Shown here: piece after piece, positions 3,891-37,433 of the stretch
Layout: each line of letters opens with the position of its first letter
Numbering within the stretch: position 1 is the stretch's first letter
Translations under genes and position numbers: made by a program
Notes under the pieces: generated by a model
Told to the model about the DNA's origin: nothing
The model's database searches: none
What the model saw: the letters and a program-made list of their open reading frames with translations, nothing else
DNA from: a virus
Reading direction: 5' to 3' (one strand)
Virus record (IMG/VR): IMGVR_UViG_3300032304_001680
Span: 1 to 37,433 of that record
DNA: 37,433 nt

Positions 3891-5081
3891 ATGGCTCAAT
3901 TTTCATTAACAGCGTCAACGGCGTTGTTCAAAACAAAGTTCGGTAAGCTATCTGAAAACGCTTACAACTCAGCAAACCCAGTATTGGGTACAATTAAAAA
4001 GGACTATCAATTTGTCGGCGAAGACTATAAAGCAGCAGTGCCTACGTTTTTCTCTGGTGGTGTTGGTTCTGGTTCGTTACCTACAGCTAATCCTGCATCT
4101 GCAGTAAAAGCTACGTTAACAGCTAAAAAAGTATACGCAGTAACTGAAATCCAACGTGAGGCGTTAAAAGCTTCTAGTTCAGATGAAGGTGCTTTCGTAG
4201 AAGCTATGAAATGGAACGTACAAAAAACTGTAGAAGCTTGGAATCGAAATGCTTCTCGTATTATGTTTGGCGATGGAACTGGTGCTTTAGGTACTATTTC
4301 TGCAAATGCTACTGGTACTGCGGCAGCTCCTGTTATCATTATCACAGCGACTTCATGGGTTGAAGGACACTGGGAAGAAAACGATTATGTAAACTGCGGA
4401 ACTGATGCTTCGGTATTCTCTGTTGTTACTGTTGTTCCTTCTACTCGTACAGTTACTTTAGCTCGTTTATCAGGCACTCTTGATTTAACTGCTGCTGGTT
4501 CTGGTTTAATCGTATACATGCAAAACTCTAAAGATAATGACCCAATCGGTTTAAAAGGTGTTTTAGATGCGACTTCAGGAACTCTTTACGGAGTAACTGT
4601 TCAACGTCGTTTCCAAGCTACTCAAATTGCAGCTGGTGGCTCTGGTATCTCTACAGATTTCATGAATGAACTAGTTTCTAAAATCATGTTCAAATGCGGT
4701 AAAGCTCCTAAATTATTGGTAACTTCTTACACTCAAATGCGTAAGATCAAAAACTTCCTAGAAGATCAAAAAGTATACCAAATTGACCCACGCGCTTCTG
4801 AACTTAAAGGAAAGATCTCTTGGTCTGGTATTGAGTTCATGGCTAACGGCTCTAAAGTAGCGATCATTGAAGATCGTATGTGTCCAGATGACAGAATGTA
4901 TGGTATCAATACAGATTTCATTACTGCTTATCACAGACCTGACTTCGGATGGTTTGATGACGATGGTACAGTTTTCTTACGTGTTGCTAATGACGATGCT
5001 TATGGCGCTCGTTACGGTGGATACTACCAAAACTACATTATTCCATCTTTCCACGGTGTTATCACAGGACTTTCAACTTAA
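3891..5081 (+). CDS. Major capsid protein
   Basis: This 396-aa protein sits directly downstream of the scaffold with a strong GAAAGGGG site 8-9 nt before ATG. Sequence traits fit an HK97-fold coat: a basic N-arm, a long helix region (residues 80-125, ending FGDGTGALG), then a beta-rich insertion (about 135-215) reminiscent of an I-domain, and a C-terminal A-domain-like part ('IEDRMCPDD', 'ANDDAYGARYGGY'). Codon use is cleaner than in neighbours, as expected of the most expressed late gene. Identification rests on position and pattern. Confidence 0.88.
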   Translation: MAQFSLTASTALFKTKFGKLSENAYNSANPVLGTIKKDYQFVGEDYKAAVPTFFSGGVGSGSLPTANPASAVKATLTAKKVYAVTEIQREALKASSSDEGAFVEAMKWNVQKTVEAWNRNASRIMFGDGTGALGTISANATGTAAAPVIIITATSWVEGHWEENDYVNCGTDASVFSVVTVVPSTRTVTLARLSGTLDLTAAGSGLIVYMQNSKDNDPIGLKGVLDATSGTLYGVTVQRRFQATQIAAGGSGISTDFMNELVSKIMFKCGKAPKLLVTSYTQMRKIKNFLEDQKVYQIDPRASELKGKISWSGIEFMANGSKVAIIEDRMCPDDRMYGINTDFITAYHRPDFGWFDDDGTVFLRVANDDAYGARYGGYYQNYIIPSFHGVITGLST

Positions 5082-30417: not shown

Positions 30418-30603
30418 TTACTTTGTTAACGCTCTTTTTAGTTGTTCTGCCATAAACTGTTTAAGGTCTAATGACTTTTGTTCATAAAATATATCTTTTG
30501 ACTTTTTGCCTTTGCGTCTAATTAAGTAGCAATTAGTTGAGCAACACCCTGCATGTTTTTTGTTAATTTTATACTTCTTTCCACAAGACCTACATGACCT
30601 CAT
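30418..30603 (-). CDS. 61-aa zinc-finger-type protein
   Basis: N-terminal CxxC ('MRSCRSCGKKY') and 'AGCCSTNCYLIRRKGKK' form a four-Cys zinc knuckle followed by a basic stretch and a helical tail. ATG overlaps the HNH stop (ATGA), so the two are coupled. Small treble-clef proteins like this often assist nucleases or bind RNA. Confidence 0.68.
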   Translation of the reverse strand: MRSCRSCGKKYKINKKHAGCCSTNCYLIRRKGKKSKDIFYEQKSLDLKQFMAEQLKRALTK

Positions 30604-31184
30604 AAAGATTGATCTCTAAAATCTGTTTCATCAGTGTTACTTTTGCCTAAATTACAATCTCTACATAATATCTGCAAGTTATCTAAAGAAAGCTCAAGTT
30701 CTGGGTATAATGATCTTGGTTTAATATGATCTATATGAATTTCAACCCCAGATGCACCACAGCACATACACTTTCTATTATACTTTAATAATGCCTTATA
30801 TCTTAAACTTAACCAGACACGAGAATTATAAAACTCTTCACTGCTGATATAATTTTTAATTGCCTTAGTTAAAATAGGATGAACCTTGATCTTTTTAATC
30901 TTTGGGATACTGGGAACTTTTGGTTTAACAACTACTACTTTAGGAACTACAATATTGTTTCTTTTAAGGATTGTTTTGACTTCCTTTTTGTTTTCAACTT
31001 GCTTAGATTGTTTTACAAGTTTTTTACTTTCAACAACAGGTAAATCAGCTTTTGAAACATGTTTAGGGACTTTGTTGCTTTTAATAAATCTTTGCATAAA
31101 GCAATGAATACATTTTTTACTAAAGTGATGTTTTCCATTAACAAACTTTACTTTGTAATACTTAAACTCATGAACGTGATTCAT
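30600..31184 (-). CDS. HNH endonuclease with N-terminal zinc motif
   Basis: This 194-aa protein is taken from ATG 31184: GGGAGAGG lies 10 nt upstream. The frame is open to ATG 31277, which has no ribosome site. N-terminus 'HEFKYYKVKFVNGKHHFSKK' with CIHC is a zinc knuckle; the middle is Lys/Val-rich and disordered; the C-terminal HNH domain has W-S-R, CMCCG, 'VEIHIDHIKPRSLYPELELS', and 'DNLQILCRDCNLGK'. It is a nicking enzyme or homing-type nuclease. It lies beside the structured non-coding region, which could matter if the pair is mobile. Confidence 0.82.
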   Translation of the reverse strand: MNHVHEFKYYKVKFVNGKHHFSKKCIHCFMQRFIKSNKVPKHVSKADLPVVESKKLVKQSKQVENKKEVKTILKRNNIVVPKVVVVKPKVPSIPKIKKIKVHPILTKAIKNYISSEEFYNSRVWLSLRYKALLKYNRKCMCCGASGVEIHIDHIKPRSLYPELELSLDNLQILCRDCNLGKSNTDETDFRDQSL

Positions 31185-31185
31185 A

Positions 31186-31269
31186 TATTTAAAACCTCTC
31201 CCTACGGAATAAGAGCCCCGACCCCTTGGATAAGAAGTTAAGACTCTCTTTTTTGTATTTAAAACCTCT
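31186..31269. repeat. 14-bp direct repeat TATTTAAAACCTCT flanking the HNH leader
   Basis: Copies at 31186-31199 and 31256-31269, 70 bp apart. Read on the minus strand each carries AGAGG followed by TTTTAAATA; the nearer one serves as the HNH ribosome site. The duplication suggests a local insertion of the 70-bp block or a decoy ribosome site. Confidence 0.7.
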
Positions 31270-31314
31270 GCATACATTCACACTTGCATACTCAGCCTTC
31301 AATGTAGATTCCGT

Positions 31315-31694
31315 TTCTATTTAGAGATTTCTCTCAAGGTTGACGTAGCTCCTACCAGCACATTGGGCTCGACGTACCAATGCCCCCTACGTTTAAATAC
31401 TTGGAACTTAAACGCACATATATCGTTCCTTGATATACACACCCCGCCACAGCTCACTAAGTGTCACCTTAATTGCAGAAGTTTATCTGTTTCCAGACCT
31501 TCGTTTCATCAAGCTCAATATGCTCAATGGAAAGAGTGGGATCTCAGCGACCTTTTCGCCTTTTTTAAGTGTTTGGCTTCACTTTGTTGTTAATTAAAAA
31601 AAACATATTGACCAGATTCGGCCACAGACTTAAATTATTCCCAACCACAAGAGTAATCTAAGTCTGGCTAGGTAACCCCTAGCCTTTCTTTTTT
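31315..31694 (+). ncRNA. Candidate structured non-coding RNA, ~380 nt
   Basis: No gene with a ribosome site exists in 31278-31740. On the plus strand successive perfect or near-perfect helices occur: 31344-31348 with 31387-31391, enclosing 31361-31366 with 31377-31382; 31390-31396 with 31408-31414; 31419-31424 with 31432-31437; 31547-31550 with 31556-31559 then six T; 31567-31571 with 31580-31584; and a long arm 31625-31640 with 31651-31666 (one mismatch). It ends with a strong intrinsic terminator valid only on this strand. A closing helix ACGGAAT (31204) with ATTCCGT (31308) could extend it 5'. TTGCAT/TAGATT at 31284-31310 is a weak promoter. No tmRNA, RNase P, tRNA, intron or retron signature is recognised. 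Confidence 0.6.
31666..31694 (+). terminator. Strong intrinsic terminator ending the candidate RNA
   Basis: GGCTAGG (31666-31672) pairs with CCTAGCC (31678-31684) around TAACC, followed by TTTCTTTTTT. The opposite strand has no T-run, so it terminates plus-strand transcripts only. No plus-strand gene exists upstream for many kilobases, which is the main reason to believe in a plus-strand RNA. Confidence 0.85.
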
Positions 31695-31740
31695 CGTCCA
31701 ACTAGAATCATTAAAAATATTCAGACTTTCAACAAAATTC

Positions 31741-32061
31741 TTAAGATGACTTAAGTTTAAACATTAATTCAACACAAGATGTCACTTCATACTTTTTAAG
31801 CATGTCTTCTAGGAACCCATCAGTTATGTCGTATTTGTCGTGCTTATAAACGCTTCGTGTAGGGCTTTTAGAGTTATCTGGTATGATGTTAAGGCTTAGT
31901 GGGATTTGTGCGCTTATAGCCCTGTTTACTTCGTCATTAAGGGCATGTACTGGTTTAGACTTCCAGTAGAACCAACCTGTTTTAATCTTATCTTGAGAAT
32001 AGAAGTCCCCGAATGTTTGTATTAAGGGGATTAAGCTAGAATTGTATTCTTGCCATGTCAC
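31741..32061 (-). CDS. Hypothetical 106-aa protein
   Basis: Mixed alpha/beta, Trp/Tyr-rich N-half ('FGDFYSQDKIKTGWFYWKSK'), and a helical C-end. It lies immediately right of the non-coding RNA region and its stop is 47 nt from the RNA terminator. No recognised family. Ribosome site is weak (ACGTG...ATG). Confidence 0.58.
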   Translation of the reverse strand: MTWQEYNSSLIPLIQTFGDFYSQDKIKTGWFYWKSKPVHALNDEVNRAISAQIPLSLNIIPDNSKSPTRSVYKHDKYDITDGFLEDMLKKYEVTSCVELMFKLKSS

Positions 32062-32332: not shown

Positions 32333-33283
32333 TCAACAGTGTATAAATCTAGCGCCATATTGATCTAACCAACCAAATCCTAAGGTGTAATCAGATAGCT
32401 TTTGTGAGTTATAAGATAGTGCCTTTGCATTTGGGTCTCCCAGAAATCCAGCGTTAAGCTCCCAGAATGTTTGATTCTGAAATCTTCTAAACGACACACC
32501 ACCTCGATGTATATGGCCACAGACTGCGTTCATTAACATATAGTCTCTGTGATCGCCTAATTTACTTCTGTATCCATGTAGAAAAGCTATCCCATCAACA
32601 ATATACTCTTGTCTTGGGTCGTGTATTGTAGTCACGTTTTGAAAAGTCATGATTTGTTTTAAATGTTTAGCTACAACATGTTCCATTGCAGGATTTAATT
32701 CTAAGGTTCTTTTTGCTGCTCTAATATCGTGATTACCGAGTAATTGAACACACTCAGCTTTCGGACATATTTGTTGTAGAGTTTGCCACATTTTAGTAGC
32801 TCCCTCTATAGCCAGTGTTTCTTCTTCTAAAGGACTATATACATTTAATGAACGTGGAAACTTTGAATGAGCATATTGATCATAAAGATCGCCAACTTGA
32901 ACAATTCTTTCAACTTCATGCTTTCTTGCAAACTCATAAAGCTTTTCTAATGTAGGTTCATGAATAAAAGGAAAATGAGTGTCGCCTATGATTAATGTGT
33001 TTTTATAAACAGGGTTTTCTATTGTCTTGACAGGTACGTGCTCTAAAACAGCCTCGGTTATTGGTTTATAGAATGGACTTACTTCATATTTGTTCTTAGG
33101 CGCTCGTGGTGATTCTAATCCAGCCGCATGAATCATGGTCGAATAACTACCATAGTAAAGATCAATCAACGCTTTACCGTTGCGAACTTTTTTTATAAAT
33201 TCGTCTCGTGTTGGCGTGTAACCAAGCTCTACAGCTATATCTATTAACAACCTAATTAATTCATGCTGATCTATTTTTGACAT
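32333..33283 (-). CDS. Metallophosphoesterase with N-terminal homing-endonuclease-type repeat
   Basis: 316 aa from ATG 33283, which follows AGGGG by 5 nt; a GTG two codons earlier is possible. Residues 18-58 ('ELGYTPTRDEFIKKVRN', 'YGSYSTMIHAAGLESP') match the homing-endonuclease-associated (HNH) repeat, a small DNA-binding unit. Residues 95-300 are a calcineurin-like phosphoesterase: GDTH, VGDLYD, LGNHD, and CGHIHRGG supply the metal ligands. The fusion suggests a phosphodiesterase or nuclease directed to DNA. It is the longest gene of the leftward block. Confidence 0.82.
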   Translation of the reverse strand: MSKIDQHELIRLLIDIAVELGYTPTRDEFIKKVRNGKALIDLYYGSYSTMIHAAGLESPRAPKNKYEVSPFYKPITEAVLEHVPVKTIENPVYKNTLIIGDTHFPFIHEPTLEKLYEFARKHEVERIVQVGDLYDQYAHSKFPRSLNVYSPLEEETLAIEGATKMWQTLQQICPKAECVQLLGNHDIRAAKRTLELNPAMEHVVAKHLKQIMTFQNVTTIHDPRQEYIVDGIAFLHGYRSKLGDHRDYMLMNAVCGHIHRGGVSFRRFQNQTFWELNAGFLGDPNAKALSYNSQKLSDYTLGFGWLDQYGARFIHC

Positions 33284-33349
33284 CTGCACCCCTAATTATC
33301 ATTTAGAGGTGTTTTTAAATTTAAGACAATTTAAGATTTAATAATGCAG

Positions 33350-36226: not shown

Positions 36227-37433
36227 CTTAGCAGAGATACATAGGGATTTACACCAGAGGTTTAAACCACATGAGGGACAAGTTCCCATAGGTAGAGCTA
36301 TTTTGTATGAAAAATGCAAAAAAGTATTTGCTAACTGTGGTCGCAGTTTTGGCAAAAGCAAAATAAATGCTTATTTACACGCCAGAATAGCGAGAGAAAA
36401 TGAAAACTCTACAAATTATATTTTTTTACCCTTTTTAACTCAAGGAAAAGAAGTTTACTGGACTCCTAAGCTATTACAGCAATTAATACCAGAAGATGAA
36501 ATCTTATCTATTAATAACACTGAAATGCGTATTATATTGACTAATGGTTCTCAAATAAAAGTTTGCGGAGCTGATAACGTAGAGTCTTACCGTGGTGTTA
36601 AGCCTAACCCGAACAGCATTATAACATTTGAAGAAGCTAAAGACCTAAAAAGAGAGTTTATAGACGCTTTTTTGCCAAATTTATCAGTAAATGACCCAAT
36701 TTTGTTTATTGTTGGAACTCCGCCAGAGTTTGAAAGCCCGTTTACAGAGTTTATGGAGTTAGCAAAAAATAGTCCTGAATGGCGTTACTTTCATGCTCCA
36801 ACAAGTACAAATCCTTATGTAAGCAAGAAATTTATAGAAGATGAACGCATCAGATTAACCAATATAGGCGAAGAAGAAACATTCTTAAGAGAATACGAAG
36901 CTATTTTTGTTAAGGGTGGAAAAAAAACTATCTACCCTCAATTCCTTAAACTTAGCCCTCAAAGATTAGATGAGATATTACCTATTGATTTAAACAAATG
37001 GGAGTTATGGGTATCGCATGACCCTGCATCAACTAGTATTTATGGGGTATTGTTTGCTCTATTTAATCCATATTCCAAGAAGATTATAGTCATAGATGAG
37101 ATCTACGAATCAGAACCATCTAAGATGACTGCTAAAGAAATAAACAAAGCAATTAAAGAAAAGCTTAAACCTTACAAGGATAAAGTTAAGACTATTAATT
37201 ATTGTTATGATGAGGCCGCTGCATGGCTTAAAAATGAAATGGGTGAAGTGGCTCCCGATGTTTGGTTGATACCAAGTCAAAAGGCTAGATTTAGAGTAGA
37301 TGGATACATTAACTTAGTTAGAGCTGTTCTAAATGCTGAACTTCTTAGTTTCAATGGTGAGTGTAAGAGCTTTATTAAAGAGCATGAGGAGTATTCAAAA
37401 GATGATAATGGTCGTATTCCAAAGCGTGATGAC
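36210..37433 (+). CDS. terL: Terminase large subunit, N-terminal part (continues at 1)
   Basis: The gene runs across the circle join to 270, giving 456 aa in all. Motifs of the packaging ATPase are present: Walker A GRSFGKS (44-50), Walker B-like ITFEE (138-142), coupling motif VGTPPE (168-173). The nuclease part follows: SHDPA (269-273), IVIDEIYE (293-300), YDEAAAWL (333-340), and KRDDH (405-409). Walker B has Glu-Glu where Asp-Glu is usual. It cuts concatemers and drives DNA into the head. ATG 36210 lies inside the HNH 3' end; no later start keeps the ATPase. Confidence 0.94.
37311..37433. repeat. Direct terminal repeat, right copy (circle closure)
   Basis: Identical to 1-123. See the left copy for interpretation. 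The unique sequence is therefore 37,310 bp. Confidence 0.95.

Follow-up and report, generated by a model that had tools for sequence, protein, structure and literature searches.

The window, meaning the whole 37,433-nucleotide stretch of viral DNA analysed here (IMG/VR record IMGVR_UViG_3300032304_001680), contains a gap of 556 nt (31185-31740) between two leftward genes. One of them, upstream, encodes a 106-aa protein of unknown function; the other, downstream, encodes a small homing-type HNH endonuclease of about 195 aa, in which Pfam recognises HNH domains only. A sequence-only reading of this DNA had described a gene-free stretch of 463 bp at 31278-31740, and indeed no plausible gene lies there, the internal ORFs being only short and overlapping; the gap is, however, larger than that reading stated. 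The HNH ORF is readable from 31277, but the gene most likely starts with the ATG at 31184, because this is preceded by a ribosome-binding site, GGGAGAGG, at 31195-31202, and because the counterpart of 31185-31277 in a related phage (L131, below) is non-coding, with an in-frame TAA ahead of the endonuclease start.

The plus strand of 31278-31740 folds better than most shuffled versions (z -2.80, 2 of 100 shuffles as low). The minus strand, which the sequence-only reading had not favoured, folds at least as well: against dinucleotide shuffles, z is -3.08 for 31278-31740 and -4.20 for 31185-31740, and when all 37 kb are scanned on both strands with 200-nt sliding windows, the lowest z falls on minus 31085-31284. 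The long arm of 15 pairs in 16 and the T-tailed terminator described earlier are both present, the T-run of the latter on the plus strand only, although a weaker terminator-like hairpin, overlooked before, faces the minus direction (31624-31609, then ATATGTTTTTTTT).

Two other features of the window deserve mention. A metallophosphoesterase (32333-33289) is unusual in being joined at its N-terminus to a homing-endonuclease-associated repeat (HNH_repeat, PF18780, E 5e-8); several related records encode homologues that are 45-53% identical to it. Near the contig end, at 36227-37109, there is another stretch, of about 880 nt, without a convincing ORF.

Copies in two further phages

None of the 4227 families of Rfam 15 matches the window at gathering score and, at E values up to 10, all matches of the window and of both relatives described below are far below gathering scores. 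ARAGORN detects neither tmRNA nor tRNA in the window. When each of the three copies was compared by blastn with phages and plasmids, only short chance matches came back, and no useful relatives emerged when the Erf, HNH and metallophosphoesterase proteins were used as queries.

Homologous segments were nevertheless found in two phages. Relatives of the window's major head protein occur in 80 IMG/VR loci, and one such phage, G031 (IMGVR_UViG_3300020219_000009, locus L131), whose head protein is 73% identical, carries a diverged copy, matched weakly (E 0.03) by nhmmer with the window minus-strand RNA. A pattern built from the window and L131 copies retrieved a third one, in IMGVR_UViG_3300020213_000495 (L232); its E value is 3e-7 against the two-sequence profile and 0.06 when the window sequence is the only query. 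As this copy was fetched by the pattern, its similarity within the pattern is not independent evidence, but its helices are. The head protein itself (phrog_14242, window 3891-5081) has 140 confirmed matches in IMG/VR and none in 50,697 phage records; the phage group that carries it is apparently wholly uncultivated.

Among the matches listed for the first, loose pattern, all but L232 and L256 (G031 again) were judged to be chance, because neither profile nor model supported them convincingly and several lay in coding sequence; under stricter patterns G031 and L232 alone came up, apart from two chance coding matches (L270, L271). Ten pattern matches came from bacterial genomes: four were scanned with the covariance model, giving 15-19 bits or nothing, and the two best (L262, L269) are within coding sequence. 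Four whole bacterial genomes contained no match to the element, which is also absent from the Erf relatives of L232.

The covariance model built on the three copies, R1, gives these, its own training sequences, 84 (window), 95 (G031) and 66 bits (L232). In 50 virus records, of which 46 have a related head protein, it yields no further convincing match, the element being carried by one of the 46 capsid relatives searched. Its single match in about 1,470 bacterial genomes, of 28 bits, lies inside an ORF, lacks the invariant motif and is taken as chance. The element is rare and sporadic, and occurs in at least two phage types.

The three copies have in common hairpins A, C and F, helix D and an invariant core, the last made up of the G-run, the UCGA loop and CUACGUCnAC ... 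AAAnAGAAACGG (Table 1). These last two blocks (31339-31348 and 31311-31322) are enclosed by helix D, together with hairpin E. An insertion of about 55 nt is private to the window copy, and its two hairpin loops, GGAAC and GUUCC, are complementary, so that they could kiss. Nearer to the gene, one copy of the direct repeat TATTTAAAACCTCT, that at 31186-31199, overlaps the HNH ribosome-binding site; these repeats might serve as binding sites for a regulator or represent a duplication of the ribosome-binding region. A comparable repeat pair, TTAATACCnCTCG, flanks hairpin F in L131 9733-9810. The conserved blocks do not code for protein, given that there are stops within them and no consistent open frame is shared among the copies; tblastx between two copies gave nothing better than E 0.1.

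The homologue of the 106-aa gene also adjoins the element in L131 (8802-9131), in the opposite orientation relative to it. An inversion or a re-insertion, either of this gene or of the element together with its endonuclease, thus separates these two related phages.

Table 1. Features in and around the gap. Positions are those of the window unless a locus is named; coordinates and strand of the element are given in the direction of the downstream gene.
Feature	Position	Strand	Remarks
HNH endonuclease gene, homing type	30600-31184	-	PF01844 E 5e-11, phrog_144 E 1e-17
Direct repeat TATTTAAAACCTCT, exact 14 bp	31186-31199 and 31256-31269		Flanks hairpin F
Conserved structured element	31203-31529	-	Homologous to L131 9731-10018 (-) and L232 5616-5880 (+)
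Hairpin F, adjoins start codon	31211-31248	-	Conserved CUUAUC and GGGG strands
Hairpin H, weak	31270-31291	-	Short hairpin at same place in both relatives
Helix D, GUAG (31352-31355) / CUAC (31304-31307)	31304-31355	-	Pair counts and alignment-free test
Hairpin E, GAGA-GAAA-UCUC	31324-31335	-	In two of three copies
G-run GGGGG and hairpin C, CAUUGG / CCAAUG, loop UACGUCGAGC	31361-31387	-	UCGA invariant
Insertion with two predicted hairpins, 31414-31442 and 31390-31414	31390-31442	-	Window only, absent from both relatives; from sequence
Hairpin A, GAAG-GUCUG-GAAA-CAGAU-AAA-CUUC, GNRA tetraloop	31478-31502	-	Outer and inner stem kept in both relatives
Weak terminator-like hairpin	31600-31624	-	Eight T; end of upstream gene
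Long arm	31625-31666		15/16 pairs on plus, 14/15 on minus; unrecognisable by sequence in relatives
Intrinsic terminator GGCUAGGUAACCCCUAGCC-UUUCUUUUUU	31666-31694	+	-12.0 kcal/mol, z -3.9
Upstream gene, 106 aa, function unknown	31741-32061	-	Homologue in L131 8802-9131, E 3e-14
Same-facing terminator	L131 10132-10159	+	Beyond far end of element
Same-facing terminator	L232 5510-5468	-	Beyond far end of element

Covariation of the helices

Across the three sequences, 93% of the cells of core helices C, D and E are paired, and 11 of the 15 pairs are changed on both sides. This pairing is reached by none of 500 shuffles, and slid versions of the alignment are all 31-48% paired. In hairpin A, every one of the 26 cells is paired and 8 of 9 pairs have changed on both sides (0 of 500 shuffles); the corresponding figures are 18 of 18 cells and 5 of 6 pairs for hairpin C taken separately, and 24 of 24 cells and 4 of 8 pairs for the outer stem of hairpin F. 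The alignments behind these counts were placed manually, N serving as filler, that of hairpin F from its two arms alone. For this reason, helices C and D were also put to an alignment-free test, in which the anchors were fixed and the non-anchor bases shuffled within each of the three sequences, giving p 0.00075 for helix C and 0.00095 for helix D, while none of 20,000 shuffles reproduced both together.

Compensatory changes among diverged homologues, the general mark of a conserved structured RNA, are found in these three sequences. From the double-sided pair changes in the core and the alignment-free p of about 0.001 for each main helix, it can therefore be concluded with great confidence that some conserved structured element exists. 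Judged by sequence comparison, it appears to be a previously undescribed conserved folded RNA or single-stranded DNA element; with no meaningful Rfam match and with covarying helices in three phages, the sequence-only proposal of a new structured RNA is supported. Whole-sequence folding beats shuffles moderately, the G031 copy taken whole does not beat them at all (z -0.2), and RNAalifold on an automatic anchored alignment is not significant (z -0.9), a result that we think comes from stems too diverged to be aligned by sequence. All this would fit unconnected hairpins lying by chance in ordinary intergenic DNA, an explanation that is nonetheless scarcely credible, as it is opposed by the alignment-free test and by the invariant blocks and compensatory changes in three phages.

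Strand and role of the element

Each of the three copies ends 25-45 nt before the ATG of a downstream gene; such constant placement ahead of a start codon, always in the same direction, is expected of a cis-acting leader. The genes themselves differ. The window has the HNH gene and G031 a Vsr/DUF559-like endonuclease gene (L131 9190-9726, minus; PF04480 E 0.0016, PF03852 E 0.008), for whose 178-aa product an AlphaFold prediction without alignment was uninformative (pLDDT 38). In L232, a 74-aa gene and then RusA follow, with Erf on the other side of the element. The adjacency to an HNH gene, remarked upon in the sequence-only reading, is thus relevant, since the second copy precedes an endonuclease of a different kind.

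The reading favoured here, with a probability of about one half, is that the element would be the minus-strand 5' leader of the HNH endonuclease gene and a candidate cis-regulatory RNA. Such a leader would be about 330 nt long, running from 31529 down to 31203, ahead of the gene start at 31184, and would be transcribed together with the downstream gene. Its core might bind a protein, a metabolite or another RNA, hairpin F, beside the ribosome-binding site, would tune translation or transcription of the downstream early gene, and together they could set the amount or timing of a DNA-acting protein.

In favour of the leader, there are three homologues in which the core and hairpins A and F covary, no coding signal is seen, and hairpin F speaks for one strand. 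In all three copies it forms only on the gene strand (minus in the window), as it depends on U-G pairs; its z on the gene strand and on the opposite one is -2.9 and 0.04 in the window, and -2.15 and -0.90, and -5.76 and -0.58, in the relatives. Hairpin A has a G-U pair on the gene strand in two copies, and it is on this strand that the invariant loops are A-rich and two tetraloops read GAAA. Against the leader, these counts come from three sequences with hand-set, N-filled alignments; core helices A, C, D and E, with almost no wobble pairs, fold about equally on either strand; the G031 copy as a whole folds no better than shuffles, no shared promoter was found upstream, and the gene that follows the third copy, of 74 aa and unknown function, is not an endonuclease gene.

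A further objection lies at the far end, directly beyond which all three copies have a strong terminator facing away from the gene (-12.0, -7.6 and -22.7 kcal/mol). That of L232 (5466-5512, -22.7 kcal/mol) is very strong; it separates the element from the divergent Erf gene and points towards the latter. Having its own terminator in three different gene contexts is what would be expected of an independent plus-strand RNA, which in the window would start from a promoter near 31190-31290, pass through the core and the long arm and end at about 31694 (some 400 nt), acting in trans or as an antisense RNA. This possibility, though less probable than the leader, is a rival to be taken seriously. In its support, the window has no plus-strand gene nearby that would need the terminator, core z is slightly lower on the strand opposite the gene in most comparisons, and a weak promoter-like site (9 of 12 positions) is present on that strand in L232 (5849-5822). 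However, no promoter common to the three copies was found on either strand, hairpin F, which is conserved with the core, would fail to form, and the invariant loops would be U/C-rich. Furthermore, on the minus strand GAAAAAAGAAAG stands ahead of the window terminator and also ahead of the 3'-end terminator of the neighbouring gene's homologue in G031 (L131 9135-9164); because of this common flank the window terminator may belong to the neighbouring gene rather than to the RNA. Of the independent plus-strand transcription proposed from the sequence, the terminators recur in all three copies, but no shared promoter was found and hairpin F points to the minus strand. A mixed arrangement is also possible, in which a leader with hairpin F runs one way and a core RNA the other way from a shared promoter region.

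The fact that two copies precede unrelated endonucleases (HNH and Vsr/DUF559-like), that the unit is oppositely oriented, in two related phages, with respect to a neighbouring gene that they share, and that it is so sporadic among capsid relatives could indicate a mobile RNA element, in which the RNA moves as a unit with an exchangeable homing endonuclease gene, much as a group I intron or another ribozyme does with its endonuclease. This is considered unlikely, given that Rfam offers no meaningful match at E up to 10, whether to group I or group II introns, to HEARO or to any other family, that no interrupted gene or exon junction is seen, and that the third copy has no adjacent endonuclease. 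Similarly doubtful is a new class of mobile phage RNA, ribozyme or guide-like, with exchangeable homing endonucleases and unrelated to introns or OMEGA RNAs; there, the invariant CUACGUCnAC/AGAAACGG internal loop would be the putative active or binding site.

Slightly less likely still is a DNA-level element, namely, a replication origin, a recombination site or a regulator-binding site whose hairpins act in single-stranded DNA. The recombination and repair functions encoded around it (Erf, RusA, Gam-like, endonucleases), the direct repeats around hairpin F in two copies and the nearly strand-neutral core helices agree with such a role, but hairpin F needs wobble pairs that a single strand provides, neither an initiator gene nor iterons were recognised, and the surrounding terminators suggest transcription.

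Relation to known systems

What began as a hunch about a gene-free stretch is now a family of RNAs described by a covariance model and an invariant core and known from three phage contexts. It can be searched for in metagenomes by means of model R1 and the pattern CTACGTCNAC-N(4-26)-AAANAGAAACGG, and is open to bench work. As a leader, the element would reveal the way in which phages regulate proteins that cut DNA; should it travel with endonucleases, it would represent a mobile RNA of a new kind.

Like ROOL, GOLLD and other large, ornate RNAs of phages, the element is rare, sporadic and structured, with many helices, but it is shorter, has no Rfam match and adjoins a gene start. With phage group I introns (RF00028) it shares the phage setting, exchangeable homing endonucleases by a structured RNA and GAAA tetraloops. 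Unlike in these introns, RF00028 recognises no P3-P9 core, one copy has no endonuclease, and the flanking ORFs in the window, L131 and L232 are complete and unrelated, with no gene interrupted. The HEARO or OMEGA RNA (RF02033), found upstream of IscB-type HNH genes, is also an RNA of a few hundred nucleotides before a same-strand HNH gene. Here, however, there is no RF02033 match, the HNH protein has no RuvC domain match in Pfam and is not recognised as an IscB/IsrB-type protein, and another copy precedes a non-HNH endonuclease. Finally, although it has been found in phages only and is unlike any listed family, the element resembles structured 5' leaders and candidate riboswitches in its conserved core and in the invariant internal-loop nucleotides placed shortly upstream of a start codon.
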